DNA of 64,000 nt from Marinobacter salicampi. GTDB taxonomy: Bacteria > Pseudomonadota > Gammaproteobacteria > Pseudomonadales > Oleiphilaceae. A program made the position numbers and the translations under genes. Below are positions 19,467 through 63,657 of this stretch, piece by piece. The stretch is from contig NZ_JAAMPF010000022.1 of the NCBI RefSeq assembly GCF_011074795.1, positions 62,001 to 126,000 of the forward strand. The letters are read 5' to 3'. The notes under the pieces were generated by a model. The model made no database searches. It saw only the letters and a list, made by a program, of their open reading frames with translations, and was not told the DNA's origin. How positions within the stretch are numbered: position 1 is the stretch's first letter; each line of letters begins with the position of its first letter.

Positions 19467-21767
19467 ATGCTGAGCACGCTGCGGAGTATCGTACAAGAAG
19501 TCAACAGTGCCAGGGACTTGCAGGAGGCGCTGGGTATTATCGTTACGCGAGTTCAGGCTGCCATGTCCACTGAAGTGTGCTCGGTGTACCTGTTGGATCC
19601 CGAAACCAACCGCTATATCCTGATGGCCACCGAGGGCCTCTATAAAAAGGCCGTGGGCAATGTAACCCTGGCCCACTCCGAAGGGCTCATCGGGCTTGTG
19701 GGTTCGCGCGAAGAACCCATTAATCTGGAAGACGCCCCTTCCCACCCCCGCTATCGCTATTTCCCTGAAACCGGTGAAGAGCGTTTCAGCTCGTTTCTGG
19801 GCGTGCCGATCATTCACCATCGTCGGGTACTGGGCGTGCTTGTGGTCCAGCAGCGTGAAAGTTCGCGCTGTTTCGATGAGGGTGAAGAGGCTTTTCTGGT
19901 CACGGTGTCGGCGCAACTGGCTGGGGTCATCGCCCACAGTGAAGCTACCGGCGCCATCAGCGGCCTGTCCCTGACCGGTCGTGAAGCCCGGGATATCAGC
20001 TTCAAGGGCGTGGCTGGCGCGCCCGGAGTCGCCATTGGCCAGAGTGTCGTGGTATATCCGCCGGCGGATCTGGACGCCGTGCCGGAAAAACAGACCGATG
20101 ATATCGAACAAGAGCTTGCCAGGTTCAGCGGCGCGGTCACTGCTGTCCGGGAGGATATCGAGCGTGTGGCCGAGCGGCTGGCGCCGCAGTTACGGCCGGA
20201 AGAGCAGGCGCTTTTTGAGGTCTACCTGCGCATGCTGGACGACAACGCCCTCCCGGGCGAGGTGGTCAACCGCATACGGGCGGGCTACTGGGCCCAGGGC
20301 GCGCTCAAACAGGTGGTGCATCAGTACGTCCGTCACTTCGAGATGATGGGTGACCTGTACCTGCGGGAAAGGGCGGTGGATATACGGGACCTGGGTCGCC
20401 GGCTGCTGGCTCATCTGCAGGAGGGTGAGCCGAAGGAAGTGGTCTACCCGGAACGTACGGTCCTGATCAGTGAAGAGCTGACCCCCGCCATGCTGGGCGA
20501 GGTGCCACGGGGCCAGCTGGTTGGTCTGGTATCGGTTCGCGGCTCAGGTAACTCCCACGTTGCCATACTCGCCCGCGCCATGGGCGTGCCCACGGTCATG
20601 GGGATGGTGGATATACCGGTCAACCAGCTGGACGGAAAAGAGCTGGTGGTTGACGGCTTCGAAGGTCAGGTTTTTGCCTCGCCATCAGCGGAGCTGCGGG
20701 TTTACTACCAGGAGATCTGTGATGAGGAGGATGCGCTCTTCCGGGGGCTGGAAGAACTCAGGGACAAGCCCTGTGAAACCACCGACGGCCACCGGGTCTC
20801 GCTGCTGGTCAATACTGGCCTGATGACTGACGTGGTCCGCTCACTGAACCACGGTGCCGAGGGTATAGGCCTGTATCGCACTGAGGTGCCCTTCATGATC
20901 AAGGAGCGCTTCCCGTCCGAGCAGGAGCAGAGGGAATACTATCGGGAGCAGCTTGAAGCTTTCGCCCCCAGCCCGGTGACCATGCGGACCCTGGACATCG
21001 GCGGCGACAAGTCCCTGACCTATTTCCCGATCTCCGAAGAAAACCCGTTCCTGGGCTGGCGAGGCATCCGGGTCACATTGGACCATCCGGAAATCTTCCT
21101 GGTGCAGGTGCGTGCCATGCTGAAGGCCAGCGAAGGCCTGAACAACCTGCAGATCATGCTGCCGATGATCAGCAATATCTCGGAAGTGGAGGAGTCACTG
21201 CACCTGATCTATCGGGTCTATCACGAAGTTCGGGAGGAGGGTTTTAATATCCATATGCCCAAGGTGGGTGTCATGGTTGAAATTCCCGCAGCCGTTTATC
21301 AGGTCCGTGAACTGGCGGACCGGGTGGACTTTCTGTCAGTGGGCTCGAACGACCTTACCCAGTATCTGCTGGCGGTGGACCGGAACAATCCCCGGGTCGC
21401 CCAGCTTTACCATTCCTTTCACCCGGCCGTTTTGCAGGCACTGGTGCGCGTGGCTCACGATGCCCATGCTGTGGGCAAGCCGGTCAGCATCTGCGGCGAA
21501 CTGGCAGGCGACCCGGGCGGTGCCGTGCTGCTCATGGCCATGGGGTACGACGCCCTGTCCATGAATGCGGCCAGTCTGCCCAAGGTCAAGTCGGTTATTC
21601 GCAGCATCAGCCGCGAATGGGCAGCCCAGCTGCTGGAGGATGTGCTGTTGCTGGACTCGCCCCATGTCATCAAGAGCTGTGTTGAGCTTGCGTTGCGAAG
21701 CGCCGGGTTCGGCCGCTACCTGCGGCCCGGCAGGAGCTCGGCAGACGCCCTCAGCCAGTCGTCCTGA
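19467..21767 (+). CDS. ptsP: Phosphoenolpyruvate-protein phosphotransferase PtsP (enzyme I-Ntr)
   Basis: A 766-residue first enzyme of the nitrogen-related phosphotransferase system; it passes phosphate from PEP to NPr. An N-terminal GAF domain (about 1-160), which in relatives senses glutamine or nucleotides, precedes the enzyme I body. The phosphorylated histidine is His364 in GSGNSHVAILARAMG. The PEP-binding barrel has TLDIGGDKSLTYF, GIRVTLDHPEIF and SICGELAGDP with its catalytic cysteine. Length is close to the Pseudomonas protein. NPr and EIIA-Ntr genes are not in the window. Confidence 0.97.
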   Translation: MLSTLRSIVQEVNSARDLQEALGIIVTRVQAAMSTEVCSVYLLDPETNRYILMATEGLYKKAVGNVTLAHSEGLIGLVGSREEPINLEDAPSHPRYRYFPETGEERFSSFLGVPIIHHRRVLGVLVVQQRESSRCFDEGEEAFLVTVSAQLAGVIAHSEATGAISGLSLTGREARDISFKGVAGAPGVAIGQSVVVYPPADLDAVPEKQTDDIEQELARFSGAVTAVREDIERVAERLAPQLRPEEQALFEVYLRMLDDNALPGEVVNRIRAGYWAQGALKQVVHQYVRHFEMMGDLYLRERAVDIRDLGRRLLAHLQEGEPKEVVYPERTVLISEELTPAMLGEVPRGQLVGLVSVRGSGNSHVAILARAMGVPTVMGMVDIPVNQLDGKELVVDGFEGQVFASPSAELRVYYQEICDEEDALFRGLEELRDKPCETTDGHRVSLLVNTGLMTDVVRSLNHGAEGIGLYRTEVPFMIKERFPSEQEQREYYREQLEAFAPSPVTMRTLDIGGDKSLTYFPISEENPFLGWRGIRVTLDHPEIFLVQVRAMLKASEGLNNLQIMLPMISNISEVEESLHLIYRVYHEVREEGFNIHMPKVGVMVEIPAAVYQVRELADRVDFLSVGSNDLTQYLLAVDRNNPRVAQLYHSFHPAVLQALVRVAHDAHAVGKPVSICGELAGDPGGAVLLMAMGYDALSMNAASLPKVKSVIRSISREWAAQLLEDVLLLDSPHVIKSCVELALRSAGFGRYLRPGRSSADALSQSS

Positions 21768-21913: not shown

Positions 21914-23158
21914 ATGACAGCAACACGCACAGACATCAAGCCCCGGCCCCGCATAGGCCTCGCCCTTGGCGGTGGCGGTCCGTTGGGCGGCATCTATGAA
22001 ATCGGTGCAATGAGGGCGCTGGATGAGGCCCTCGAAGGCATCGATTTCAACGATCTCGATGTGTACGTGGGCGTTAACGCCGGGTCTTTTGTTGCCGCCA
22101 ATCTTGCTAACCAGATGACCACCGCTCAACTGTGCCGGATCTTTGTCCGCAATGAAGCCGAGGTTCATCCTTTCCATCCGGAAGTCTTCTACCGTCCGGC
22201 ACTGAAAGAACTTGGCAGCCGCTTGCTGGCTGTGCCGGGGCTGGTGACCAGTGCGATCAGCCGTTTTATCAATAATCCCTACGACCAGAGTCTGCTTGAG
22301 GCCCTGACCATTCTTGCCCAGGCTGCCCCGGCAGGCCTGTTTGATAATGATGGCCTGCATGAGTACCTCAAGCGAAGTTTCAGCATGCTGGGTCGAACCA
22401 ATGATTTCCGCCAGCTCCGTCGCAGTCTCTACATTGTGGCGGCGGATGTGGAAAGCACCGAGGCGGTCTGTTTCGGGGCGCCCGGGTTCGACCATGTGCC
22501 TATTTCCCGGGCCATCCAGGCCAGTATGGCGTCACCCGGGCTGTATGTGCCTGTGGATATCGATGGCCGCTTTTACGTCGATGGTACCCTGAGGAAAGGC
22601 CTACACGCCTCGGTGGCCTTCGAGGACGGCGCCGACCTGGTACTGGCAGTCAACCCGCAGGTGCCGATTGATGCCAGCGAGGCGGTGCGGTCAGGCTCCA
22701 TGGCGCCAGGCGCGCTGACCCGTTCCGGAATGCCGACGCTGCTGTCACAAACATTCCGGACCATGGTCTATTCGCGCATGAAGTCTGGTATTGCCCAATA
22801 CGCCCGGGATTACCCGGAGAAAGACATCCTGCTGTTCGAGCCTACCCGGGACGACGCCAAACTCTTCTTTTCCAATGTATTCAGCTTCCAGTCCCGGCGA
22901 ATGGTTTGCGAGCACGCCTATCAGATGACCCGCCGGGATCTGCTGGCCCGCGCTGATGAGCTTGAGCCAAGGCTGTTGAAATATGGCATCAAGTTGCGGC
23001 GGGACCGACTGGAGGATGAGCAACGCACCATCAGTACGAGTCTGTACGGTGAAATGCTCCCCCTTTACGTAGCAAAGGGGCGCAGGAAGAAGGCCCAGAA
23101 GGGTCGTCTGAGCACGGGCCTGAACAATGTGACTGGCCTGATCCAGAAGGCCCTGTAA
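21914..23158 (+). CDS. Patatin-like protein with Asn in place of the nucleophile Ser
   Basis: A 414-residue protein with a patatin domain over its first ~240 residues. The glycine-rich oxyanion loop is GLALGGGGPLGG (15-26) and the conserved aspartate is Asp223 in YVDGT. The nucleophile elbow, normally GxSxG, reads GVNAGS: residue 55 is Asn, codon AAC at 22076-22078. Unless Ser58 or another residue substitutes, hydrolysis by the usual Ser-Asp dyad should be lost, so this may be a pseudo-enzyme or an as yet unproven variant. The rest, including SMASPGLYVPVDIDGRFYVD, is well kept and the frame intact, so it is not a decaying gene. A basic C-terminus (GRRKKAQKGR) could bind membranes or nucleic acid. 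It stands alone after ptsP. Confidence 0.85.
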   Translation: MTATRTDIKPRPRIGLALGGGGPLGGIYEIGAMRALDEALEGIDFNDLDVYVGVNAGSFVAANLANQMTTAQLCRIFVRNEAEVHPFHPEVFYRPALKELGSRLLAVPGLVTSAISRFINNPYDQSLLEALTILAQAAPAGLFDNDGLHEYLKRSFSMLGRTNDFRQLRRSLYIVAADVESTEAVCFGAPGFDHVPISRAIQASMASPGLYVPVDIDGRFYVDGTLRKGLHASVAFEDGADLVLAVNPQVPIDASEAVRSGSMAPGALTRSGMPTLLSQTFRTMVYSRMKSGIAQYARDYPEKDILLFEPTRDDAKLFFSNVFSFQSRRMVCEHAYQMTRRDLLARADELEPRLLKYGIKLRRDRLEDEQRTISTSLYGEMLPLYVAKGRRKKAQKGRLSTGLNNVTGLIQKAL

Positions 23159-23164
23159 CGGCCG

Positions 23165-23524
23165 TCAGTCCCGGCTACCGCCCTGTTCCTCAAGCCGCCT
23201 GAGATAGTCCTGCCAGACCTGTTGCTGCCGATCACCCAGGTCACGAAGGTAATCCCAGGTGAATAGCCCCGAGTCATGCCCGTCACTGAAAGTAAGTTTG
23301 ACCGCGTAATTGCCCACCATTTCCGCCCCCGTGATATCAACCTGGCGCTTGCCGGTCTGGAGTGTCCCGGGCCCCGTGCCGTGGCCCCGAACCTCGGCAG
23401 AGGGAGAGTAGACCCTTAGCAGTTCGAAGGGCAGCTCATGGCAGGAGCCATCAGCGTACTCAAGACGCAGAAGACGACTTTTTCTTCGCAGGCGGATATC
23501 AATGGGGCGTGTCGACTGAGTCAT
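23165..23524 (-). CDS. DUF971 family protein
   Basis: A 119-residue protein of the DUF971 family (gamma-butyrobetaine hydroxylase-like N-terminal domain). Typical features are IRLRRKSRLLRLEYADG, a central LPFELLRVYSPSAEVRGHG and the end FSDGHDSGLFTWDYLRDLG. The domain occurs alone in bacteria and is sometimes found next to iron-sulphur genes; no function can be assigned from this sequence. AAGGTT precedes the ATG. It lies directly after hslU on the same strand, as the equivalent gene does in Pseudomonas, but an intervening hairpin (23551) may separate the transcripts. Confidence 0.88.
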   Translation of the reverse strand: MTQSTRPIDIRLRRKSRLLRLEYADGSCHELPFELLRVYSPSAEVRGHGTGPGTLQTGKRQVDITGAEMVGNYAVKLTFSDGHDSGLFTWDYLRDLGDRQQQVWQDYLRRLEEQGGSRD

Positions 23525-23593: not shown

Positions 23594-24925
23594 CTACAGG
23601 ATGAACCGGCTCAGGTCTTCGTCTTCCGCAAGCTCACCCAGTTTCTCGTCCACATACTCAGCGGTGATTTCGAACTGCTCGGTAACCTTGTCACCGGCAT
23701 CGAAGGACAGGGTTTCCAGCAGTCGTTCAAGCACCGTATGCAGGCGACGGGCGCCAATGTTTTCGGTGGTTTCGTTCACTTTCCAGGCCACCTCTGCAAT
23801 TCGCTCGATAGCGCCCTCGGTGAAGGTCAGGGTCAACCCCTCCGTGCCCATCAAAGCTTCGTATTGCTGGACCAAAGAGGCATCGGGCTCGGTGAGGATG
23901 CGCTTGAACTGCTCGGTTGTGAGCGCCTGCAGTTCTACCCGGATGGGCAAGCGACCCTGCAGCTCGGGAATCAAGTCGGAAGGCTTGGAAAGGTGAAACG
24001 CGCCTGACGCGATGAACAGGATGTGGTCGGTCCGGACCATGCCAAACTTGGTGCTGACCGTGCTGCCTTCAATAAGGGGCAGCAGGTCACGCTGGACACC
24101 TTCCCGGGAGACATCCCCCCCTGACCCGGTTTCGGAACGCTTGGCCACCTTGTCGATCTCGTCGATAAACACGATACCGTTCTGTTCCACCGCCTCGATG
24201 GCCTTCTGCTTGATCTCTTCCTCATTGACCAGCTTCGCTGCTTCTTCATCCCTGGCCCTGATAAGGGCGTCGGACACCTTCATCTTGCGGGTCTTGCGCC
24301 GTTCCGATGACATGTTCGAGAACATGCTCTGGAGCTGGTTGGTCATCTCTTCCATGCCAGGAGGCGCCATGATCTCGACCCCGGAACCGGGATTCTTCAG
24401 GTCGATCTCTATTTCCTTGTCATCCAGCTGACCTTCCCGGAGCTTCTTGCGGAACAGCTGCCGGGTCGAGGAATCCTCAGGGGCCTTGCTGTCTTCGTCG
24501 AAGTTGCGGGCCGGGGGCAGAAGCGCATCGAGGATCCGGTCTTCAGCGGCATCCATGGCCTGGTTGCGGTGCCGTGCCATTTCCTTTTCACGCAGCAGTT
24601 TCACCGCCATATCAGCCAGATCACGGATAATGGATTCAACATCCCGACCGACATAGCCCACTTCGGTGAACTTGGTGGCCTCCACTTTCAGGAAGGGCGC
24701 ATCGGCCAGCTTGGCGAGACGGCGGGCAATTTCAGTCTTGCCGACACCGGTGGGACCGATCATGAGGATATTCTTGGGCGTAATTTCGTCCCGCAGACTG
24801 ATGTCCAGCTGCATCCTGCGCCAGCGGTTGCGCAGGGCAATGGCCACTGCGCGCTTGGCTTCGTCCTGTCCGACTATGTGCTTGTTGAGTTCATGGACAA
24901 TTTCACGGGGAGTCATTGCAGGCAT
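23594..24925 (-). CDS. hslU: ATP-dependent protease ATPase subunit HslU (ClpY)
   Basis: A 443-residue AAA+ unfoldase that feeds proteins into the HslV peptidase (E. coli HslU 443 residues). It starts [20 protein letters not shown], has Walker [10 protein letters not shown] and the Walker B stretch [12 protein letters not shown], and carries an intermediate domain rich in charged residues (about 110-240). The C-terminal tail ends LSRFIL; in HslU this tail inserts into HslV pockets. It begins 11 nt after the hslV stop, so the two are one operon under the heat-shock-type promoter upstream of hslV. Confidence 0.98.
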
Positions 24926-24936
24926 GGTTGCTCCGG

Positions 24937-25467
24937 TCAGTCGTTGGCAGACAGCACTTCGAGAGTACGGTTGTGGTTGGTGTAAATGCAGATGTCGGCG
25001 GCAATATCCAGGCCTTTCTCGACGATGTCTGCGGCGCCCATCTCAGTGTTCTCCAGCAGCGCTCTGGCGGCCGACTGGGCGAAGGGACCACCGGAACCTA
25101 TGGCAATCAGGCCCTGTTCCGGTTCGATCACGTCACCATTGCCGGTAATGATAAGGGAGGCAGTCTTGTCCGCGACCGCAAGCAGGGCCTCAAGGCGCCG
25201 CAGGGCACGGTCGGTGCGCCAGTCTTTGGCCAGCTCAACGGCGGCCCGGGTCAGATTGCCCTGGTGCTTTTCCAGCTGGGCCTCGAAGCGCTCAAACAGG
25301 GTAAACGCATCGGCTGTGCCGCCAGCAAAACCTGCGATCACTTTATTGCCGTAAAGGCGGCGGACCTTGCGGGCGTTGCCCTTCATGACGGTGTTGCCGA
25401 GAGAAACCTGGCCGTCGCCACCCATGGCAACGGTGTCTCCGCGCCTTACCGAAAGAATCGTGGTCAT
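24937..25467 (-). CDS. hslV: ATP-dependent protease subunit HslV (ClpQ)
   Basis: A 176-residue threonine peptidase of the proteasome-like HslVU complex. After removal of Met the mature protein begins [10 protein letters not shown], with Thr1 as nucleophile. Other conserved pieces are [26 protein letters not shown] and the [14 protein letters not shown] helix. The frame is open upstream to 25527, but only the ATG at 25467 gives the catalytic N-terminal threonine, and GGAG precedes it. It is transcribed with hslU; a sigma-32-like promoter lies about 40 bp upstream. Confidence 0.98.
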
Positions 25468-25505
25468 GACTGCTCCATAAACCGGAGGATGAATTGATTC
25501 ATCGG

Positions 25506-25533
25506 ATATGGCGGCAACCGATAGCATTTCAAG
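25506..25533 (-). promoter_or_regulatory. Sigma-32 (RpoH)-type heat-shock promoter for hslVU
   Basis: On the minus strand CTTGAA (25533-25528) is followed after 14 nt by CGCCATAT (25513-25506). The RpoH consensus is CTTGAA with a CCCCATNT -10 box 13-17 nt away, so 13 of the 14 consensus positions that can be scored, counting N as free, are met. The expected start of transcription is some 30 nt upstream of the hslV ATG. This fits the known heat-shock control of hslVU in E. coli. Confidence 0.8.
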
Positions 25534-62128: not shown

Positions 62129-63657
62129 CAATTGCGTAACCGGGTGACGGTTTTACGGATAATCCCTTCCATATAAGTCAGTGCATCGTCCGCCAGGGTG
62201 TTGCGTTGGTGGTCCGGCTGGAGGTTTTCTTCCGACTCGGCCGGCAACTCCTGTGCGGCCTCCTCGATACATGCAAGGCTCTCAGACACCAGTTCGCTCA
62301 GCATGTGGCCCTGGGCAACGACATCCGGACACAGGGTAAAGTTGATGGTCAACTGGCCCTGGTAGCTGACGGCAACGATCACCAGCCCCATGCTGTCGAA
62401 AAGGGGAGCGGTATTGTACTGCTGCACCAGTCGGGCGCCCTGGAGATACAGGGGCACCTGAGGGCCCGGCACGTTGGTAATGGGTACGTTGAATACCGGT
62501 TGGTAGCGCTGCGCCATCTGCAGCTCGGTGTAGAGTCGCGCAGACAGTGCAAGCATGGTCGATGGGACTAGTTCGGTCAGCCGATCCGCTGATATGGCTT
62601 CCTGGTACGGTTCAGAGGCCACCGCGTTGCAGTGGATCCGGCGAATCCGCCGGGCCGGGTTGGGCTCATCGGTGGCCAGGTCCAGCAGCATCGCGGACAT
62701 CTGGTTACCGGTGGCCCGCCGCAGGCTTTTCGATCGCACCGAGACCGGAGTCATGGCGACCAGTGAGCGCTCAGTATCCGCCGACTGGGAGACCATATAG
62801 CGGCGCAGGGTCTCGGCACAGACCCCCAGCACCACGTCGTTGAGCGTTACGTCCCCAAGCGAACCCTTGATGGCCTTCAGCCGTGCCAAGGAAATGTTGG
62901 CTGCCACCACCCGACGGTTGGCGGTGATTTGCCGGTTGAAGGGACTGTGAGGGGCTGAAAATAGTGGAAAGGGCAGGGGCAGACGTTTCAGCTGGCGATG
63001 AATAAGGCCCCGGGTGGTTGCTTCCATGGCGCCCGCGGCCAGGGACGCAACCCGAAACGGCTTGCGGATCAGATTGGCGCCAGCCTGCAGGGCGACCCGT
63101 TCGTCGGAAGGCGCCGCTTGTGCCTGCCAGGGCTGGGGCGCAGAGATGCGTCGAGCCTGAGGCGTGTACTCCAGTAATTTACCCATGATCTCCTCGCCGC
63201 TGAACGCATCAATCGCAGCATGGTGGAGTCGCACGATGAGCGCAAAGCCCTGTTTTTCTTCAGCTCCTGAGCCGGTGCGGAAACCATCAACGAAGGTGAT
63301 GTGCCACAGGGGGCGATCCCGCTTCAGCGGTTCTTCCAGAATTTTTGCAGCCAGCGCCATCAGGTTATGTTGCAGCCCGTTTTCGCCCAGGTTCACGTAA
63401 GCAAGATGGCGTTCGATACTGAATTCGGTATCGTCCACCCAATAGGGGCGCCCTAGGCGTAGCGGGATCTCCCGCAATCTCTGGCGGAAAAACGGTACCA
63501 CGTGAAGACGGCTGCGCAGATAGGCGACAAACGTGCTGAAGGCCAGCGGCTGCTCGCTGTCCTGTCCCTCGAACAGGTAGATGCCACCGATGTGCATCGG
63601 AGCGGTATCGGATTCAAGGTAAAGAAACGAGGCATCCAGCTCGGATAACTGTCGCAT
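62128..63657 (-). CDS. Wax ester synthase/diacylglycerol acyltransferase (WS/DGAT) homologue
   Basis: A 509-residue acyltransferase of the bacterial WS/DGAT family, which joins acyl-CoA to fatty alcohols or diacylglycerol for storage lipid. The N-terminus QLSELDASFLYLESDTAPMHIGG, PLW motif (RPLWHITFV), ND motif (LNDVVLG, 273-278) and TNVPGPQVPLYLQG are typical. The catalytic HHxxxDG motif reads HHAAIDA (145-151): both histidines and the aspartate are kept, and the final glycine is alanine. Marinobacter carries several such paralogues, some of low activity in vitro. It follows a LysR-type gene on the same strand at 81 bp. Location is probably membrane-peripheral. Confidence 0.92.
   Translation of the reverse strand: MRQLSELDASFLYLESDTAPMHIGGIYLFEGQDSEQPLAFSTFVAYLRSRLHVVPFFRQRLREIPLRLGRPYWVDDTEFSIERHLAYVNLGENGLQHNLMALAAKILEEPLKRDRPLWHITFVDGFRTGSGAEEKQGFALIVRLHHAAIDAFSGEEIMGKLLEYTPQARRISAPQPWQAQAAPSDERVALQAGANLIRKPFRVASLAAGAMEATTRGLIHRQLKRLPLPFPLFSAPHSPFNRQITANRRVVAANISLARLKAIKGSLGDVTLNDVVLGVCAETLRRYMVSQSADTERSLVAMTPVSVRSKSLRRATGNQMSAMLLDLATDEPNPARRIRRIHCNAVASEPYQEAISADRLTELVPSTMLALSARLYTELQMAQRYQPVFNVPITNVPGPQVPLYLQGARLVQQYNTAPLFDSMGLVIVAVSYQGQLTINFTLCPDVVAQGHMLSELVSESLACIEEAAQELPAESEENLQPDHQRNTLADDALTYMEGIIRKTVTRLRN

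Follow-up and report, generated by a model that had tools for sequence, protein, structure and literature searches.

The analyses presented here indicate that Marinobacter salicampi encodes, at 21914..23158 (+) of the window (the whole 64,000-nucleotide stretch of DNA that was analysed), a protein of patatin fold in which asparagine stands at the position of the nucleophile. Patatins use a serine as the nucleophile, within the motif GxSxG. We propose, with a probability of about 0.55, that the protein is a non-hydrolytic, lipid-binding or regulatory pseudo-lipase derived from a storage-lipid patatin, and that the change is reversible. The strong conservation of the gene, its link with genes for wax and fat storage and the return of serine in one lineage together suggest a protein that probably works without cutting, and not a decaying enzyme.

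The open reading frame is intact over 414 aa from an ATG start, as originally described, and matches the Pfam Patatin family (PF01734; 74.1 bits against a cut-off of 27.7, E 2.3e-20). At the place of the GxSxG serine nucleophile of that family it reads GVNAG, and the serine lipase box that is a trait of PhaZh1-like storage-granule patatins is absent from the protein. Asn55, encoded by AAC at 22076..22078 (+) within GVNAGS, aligns in a phmmer comparison with 5fqu with the serine of PlpD GTSMG, and Asp223 (GAT, 22580..22582, +; within VDGT) aligns with the PlpD DG aspartate; both residue assignments of the original prediction are borne out by this comparison. Asp223 and Gly224 are present in 101/101 orthologues, and the third residue of the DG[G/A] motif is T in 97/101. 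The glycine-rich, oxyanion-type loop GGGGPLGG (residues 19–26; 21968..21991, +), which had been described as kept, is indeed conserved inside the family but departs from that of PlpD, relative to which it is longer by one residue and lacks the Arg (phmmer). Arg or Lys is typical of this loop in patatins; neither occurs at residues 23–26 in the 100 rows, among the 101 orthologues, that cover them, and the Ser-bearing members have a loop that is likewise longer and Arg-less relative to PlpD. An AlphaFold model built from 26 orthologues (mean pLDDT 78.2) has the patatin fold. The four other patatins found in the M. salicampi genome carry Ser in GxSxG.

Orthologues were drawn from 58 relatives, 390 genomes of the order and a contig scan (best 80 of 122), with matches below 150 bits dropped as paralogues; removal of identical copies reduced 133 locus copies to 101 distinct proteins (not species). 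Position 55 is Asn in 86 and Ser in 15 of these, a ratio that belongs to a sample leaning to close relatives, and nothing but Asn or Ser occurs there in 101/101 rows. Close homologues are thus far from uniformly Ser at this column, and with Asn in 86/101 distinct orthologues a strain mutation or sequencing error is ruled out. Since Asn is always encoded by AAY (AAC 40, AAT 46; 86/86 rows) and Ser always by AGY (AGC 5, AGT 10; 15/15 rows), a single transition separates the two states, in agreement with the one-base exchange suggested earlier. A profile search of 369 genomes from the class and 397 from the phylum gave six deeper members, and 6/6 carry Ser at position 55. Most sampled Marinobacter species carry the Asn protein, seemingly as a single copy: each of the 23 positive genomes among the 390 of the order yields just one match at E<=1e-40. 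Two unusual copies were seen. In the complete genome of Marinobacter salarius R9SW1 the orthologue lies in two frames, split near residue 42 (L113:4001-5241; G036:C1:4114874-4116114), and close relatives hold intact copies; the genome G030 has a diverged Asn-type copy (L039:1501-2730) with 71–73% identity to that of the window.

The patatin's own tree was computed with column 55 removed, and on it the Ser label requires 4 changes, where shuffles give 14.2; starred branches force 2 of the 4. A tree of the neighbouring ptsP and HslU, for which 92 rows (83 Asn and 9 Ser) were available after 9/101 (6 Ser, 3 Asn) had been omitted for a missing or short ptsP or hslU, requires 3 state changes, all 3 forced by starred branches. 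The two trees disagree on the long-branched Asn rows L040 and L041, which the own-gene tree sets beside the M. litoralis Ser rows. The AU test rejected the 82 main-clade Asn rows as a single clade (p 0.00126, for a group named after the tree had been seen). These comparisons indicate that Ser is the ancestral state. Considering that all deeper members have Ser, the simplest account of the trees would have three steps: a gain of Asn on the stem shared by Marinobacter and Tamilnaduibacter; a second, separate gain in L123, a MAG that bears the label Halomonas and lies next to Ser-bearing Halovibrio; and a regain of Ser in the five rows of the M. litoralis group, which is nested among Asn species. 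The earlier description of an Asn change in a conserved gene stands as to its reality; the trees show it not as an isolated mutation but as a long-standing state of the genus that reverted once.

Selection on the gene is strongly purifying, as judged from few usable pairs. Among Asn rows the whole gene gives a dN/dS of ~0.02 and the active-site blocks one of ~0.01, from 17 and 6 usable pairs (400 or 1500 of 3570 pairs were sampled and 6 or 17 retained; L113 was excluded), and dN/dS is 0.085 in the near Ser outgroups with pairs up to dS 3 admitted. Asp223, Gly224, Gly53, Gly57, Tyr51, Lys228 and His231 are each found in 86/86 Asn rows, and glycines 20–22 in all 85 Asn rows that cover them. A catalytic residue that is gone from a conserved fold and a conserved gene is the pattern of a pseudo-enzyme. 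The 12-base palindrome GGCGTTAACGCC centred on codon 55 is exact in just 8/86 Asn rows, and we take it as a chance codon choice.

In the window the patatin gene lies between a gene that we name ptsP from its sequence (19467..21767, +) and one for a GBBH-like_N protein (PF06155, which we take to be DUF971; 23165..23524, −), followed by hslU-like (23594..24925, −) and hslV-like (24937..25527, −) genes, presumably hslU and hslV themselves. The DUF971 gene had no match next to the patatin locus in L170 or L172, both of the M. litoralis group, in L167 or L168 (G004, G026), or in L176 (G179). In the deeper Ser-type loci (L151–L160) a phasin gene adjoins the patatin in 10/10, the phasin being confirmed by Pfam in L157, L158 and L160 and recognized in the others by their resemblance to those three and to the protein of L155. 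The same ten regions, of 14–15.5 kb, contain a two-domain SDR (7/10), a TPR protein (7/10) and a TetR gene (6/10). In one of them (L157:4448-8661) hslV, hslU, DUF971, patatin and phasin stand in a row, an arrangement which, on gene order, stands midway between the storage cluster of the outgroups and the locus as it is in Marinobacter. A conserved protein of 224–254 aa is also encoded near the phasin–patatin cluster (L157:11015-11779, L155:12115-12840, L160:9314-9988) and matches no Pfam family at E<=0.01. The phasin of the deeper loci favours the proposed storage reading, and two features of the neighbourhood count against it: WS/DGAT lies near the patatin in only 2/10 of the outgroup regions of 14–15.5 kb, and a phasin gene was found in 0/81 loci of Marinobacter and its nearest Ser-type relatives (L046–L125, L161), within the DNA available around the patatin. 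The M. salicampi phasin is encoded on a different contig, where its neighbour is a TetR gene resembling the one in the outgroups (L166).

Across genomes WS/DGAT, the storage-lipid synthase, occurs in 50/50 and 8/8, hence 58/58, patatin-bearing genomes, and above the cut-off in 30/80 patatin-less genomes of the order (80 of 367 negatives), both being raw counts that ignore kinship. The patatin was found in 23/390 order genomes, and phasin in 23/23 of those and 152/390 overall, again with kinship ignored; in another set phasin was present somewhere in the genome in 50/51 genomes tested. Since a PHA synthase (PhaC_N above cut-off) was found in only 34/51 genomes, the patatin appears to be tied more closely to neutral lipid than to PHA. 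A correlation of Asn with PHA synthase was looked for and none was seen, Asn and Ser members both occurring with and without PhaC_N. A WS/DGAT catalytic domain (PF03007) is encoded in the window itself at 62830..63648 (−; G000:C15:124830-125648), ~40 kb from the patatin, and we infer a functional link between the two.

Loss of the patatin also bears on the association, in two genomes, one just 62% complete. In the Marinobacter genome G179 (100% complete) the patatin is gone, ~120 bases separating the matches to hslU and ptsP, and no phasin, WS/DGAT or PhaC was found in this genome. In G033, the Marinobacter genome of 62% completeness, ~950 bases without recognisable patatin occupy the locus and no WS/DGAT match was obtained. 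Since G030, with which G033 pairs, has kept the patatin, the two losses look separate. The ~950 bases in the patatin's place (L177:1496-2448) contain an open frame. In G030, the carrier of L039 and the nearest relative of G033, WS/DGAT matches number only two, the better one at E 3.2e-35.

We suggest that this patatin-fold protein may belong to the system that stores neutral lipid (wax ester or triacylglycerol). Its ancestor would have been a Ser–Asp acyl hydrolase encoded beside phasin, and the Ser members of the family are presumably acyl hydrolases that work at storage inclusions. The change of the nucleophile from Ser to Asn would have taken place on the Marinobacter stem, with the Gly-rich loop, Asp223 and the pocket held by strong selection. 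The Asn form most likely makes no acyl-enzyme any longer and would keep its binding to substrate or surface, that is, to acyl chains or to the surface of storage inclusions, possibly serving there as a non-hydrolytic regulator that shields stored lipid or tunes a partner lipase, for example. In the M. litoralis group a return to Ser would have followed, and this return may be a sign that the Asn form has some activity. Of the options originally put forward, a pseudo-enzyme or lipid-binding protein is the one best supported, and Ser58 as an alternative nucleophile is weakened. The reversion and the link with phasin and WS/DGAT go beyond the original description.

Several other explanations have to be considered. 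One is that the Asn form is active with changed chemistry, in which a water activated by Asp223 is positioned by Asn55, or Asn55 is deamidated to an Asp nucleophile. The retained pocket residues and Asp223, where selection is strongest, would agree with this, as would an Asn state that, in the simplest history, arose twice and was reversed once. In 86/86 Asn rows Asn55 is followed by A (55), S (17), G (12) or T (2), and Asn–Gly, the pair in 12 of them, is prone to deamidation. On the other side, 55/86 rows have Asn–Ala, which deamidates more slowly; Asp-nucleophile hydrolases use a His base, and such a base was not identified in the protein; and to our knowledge no known patatin uses Asn or deamidated Asp chemistry. 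We regard changed chemistry as unlikely. That Asn55 itself (or the Asp formed from it by deamidation) is a working catalytic or switch residue, taking the place of Ser alongside Asp223 in chemistry on storage lipids, in a state gained twice and reverted once, seems to us distinctly doubtful.

There is little chance, in our estimation, that another serine such as Ser58, three residues beyond the nucleophile position, took over and left the protein an ordinary hydrolase. Ser58 is present in 84/86 Asn rows, and S198, S204, S233, S287 and S324 are among the other near-invariant Ser/Thr positions that might serve. Nevertheless, Ser58 is replaced by Ala in 2/86 Asn rows (M. lutaoensis L115 and the MAG L123) and in 5/15 Ser rows, and residue 56 is Ser or Thr in only 19/86 Asn rows. 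Furthermore, 17 of the 19 Ser/Thr/Cys positions that are near-invariant in Asn rows were already identical in 9/9 nearest Ser rows, and S126 in 8/9. T269 (22718-22720) is the sole one of the 19 that goes with the Asn lineages: near-invariant in Asn rows (84/85), it occurs also in the separate Asn row L123 and is variable in 4 near Ser outgroups. It lies outside the known motifs, and the 5 reverted Ser rows retain it as well. The behaviour of Ser58 and of the Ser/Thr/Cys positions argues that no evident replacement nucleophile accompanies the loss of Ser.

A very small probability attaches to decay, with the enzyme useless in Marinobacter and the substitution neutral: the nucleophile is lost, one assembly (L113) has a split frame, and G179 and G033 no longer have the gene, but dN/dS is ~0.02, the dyad Asp stands in 86/86 Asn rows and position 55 holds only Asn or Ser in 101/101. 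A-to-I editing of the mRNA, re-reading the codon as Ser, is hardly credible: AAY to AGY is the expected edit and the ancestral and reverted codons are AGY, but the known bacterial editing motif, TACG, is absent, with A as the base preceding the edited A in 86/86 rows and AAT as the codon in 46/86.

The preferred reading, a pseudo-lipase that binds lipid or regulates its use, has some wider implications. Pseudo-enzymes often stem from a spare copy after gene duplication; what is unusual here is that an apparently single-copy gene swapped its nucleophile in place, retained the rest of the site and reverted in one lineage. Since the reverted Ser forms of the M. litoralis group are 84–85% identical to the Asn form of the window, the two provide natural pairs for asking what a lipase fold does without cutting. 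Marinobacter is studied for its wax ester and fat bodies, and the link with phasin and WS/DGAT makes the protein a candidate factor for such bodies in bacteria. A genetic system has been reported for one member of the genus, M. atlanticus CP1 (PMC6308636). Neither an asparagine-nucleophile patatin nor the present Marinobacter protein appeared in the titles and abstract openings of the literature among the matches listed.

Finally, considering known systems, the protein resembles PlpD and the PF01734 family in its Pfam match, fold, DG aspartate and Gly-rich loop (model against PlpD, 5fqu/5fya: Z 24.8, 249 residues, rmsd 3.2, 28% identity), and differs from PlpD in having Asn for the Ser nucleophile and a loop with one more residue and no Arg. 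The model also superimposes on the DFP-aged patatin 4pka (Z 23.1, 290 aligned, rmsd 4.3). With the antiphage patatins CapE (Z 25.3, 272 aligned, rmsd 3.3) and CapV (AbCapV: Z 23.0, 285 aligned, rmsd 4.8) it shares the fold, whereas it has lost the Ser and scores below the cut-off of the NCBIfam CBASS_lipase model (26.8 bits against 200). We therefore set aside a defence role as a CapV-like CBASS effector. No cyclase gene was recognized by eye among the open reading frames neighbouring the patatin. The similarity to RssA (PRK10279) is distant at the sequence level (36.6 bits against a cut-off of 272).

A precedent for a patatin on storage granules is PhaZh1, the PHA-granule patatin of Haloferax mediterranei (PMC7137286); the protein of the window may be of this type, the deeper Ser members of its family being encoded beside phasin. 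PhaZh1 is described as hydrolysing granules in vitro, with a Ser lipase box (GTSGG) that is critical for the reaction (PMC7137286, PMC6631277). The protein of the window has no such box, and we liken the two by description only. According to the review, knockout of PhaZh1 had no effect on PHA mobilization (PMC7137286), a result that we would count against the storage-lipid reading. Unlike the PHA-linked PhaZh1, the family described here accompanies WS/DGAT in 58/58 genomes by raw count, kinship ignored, and PHA synthase in only 34/51.
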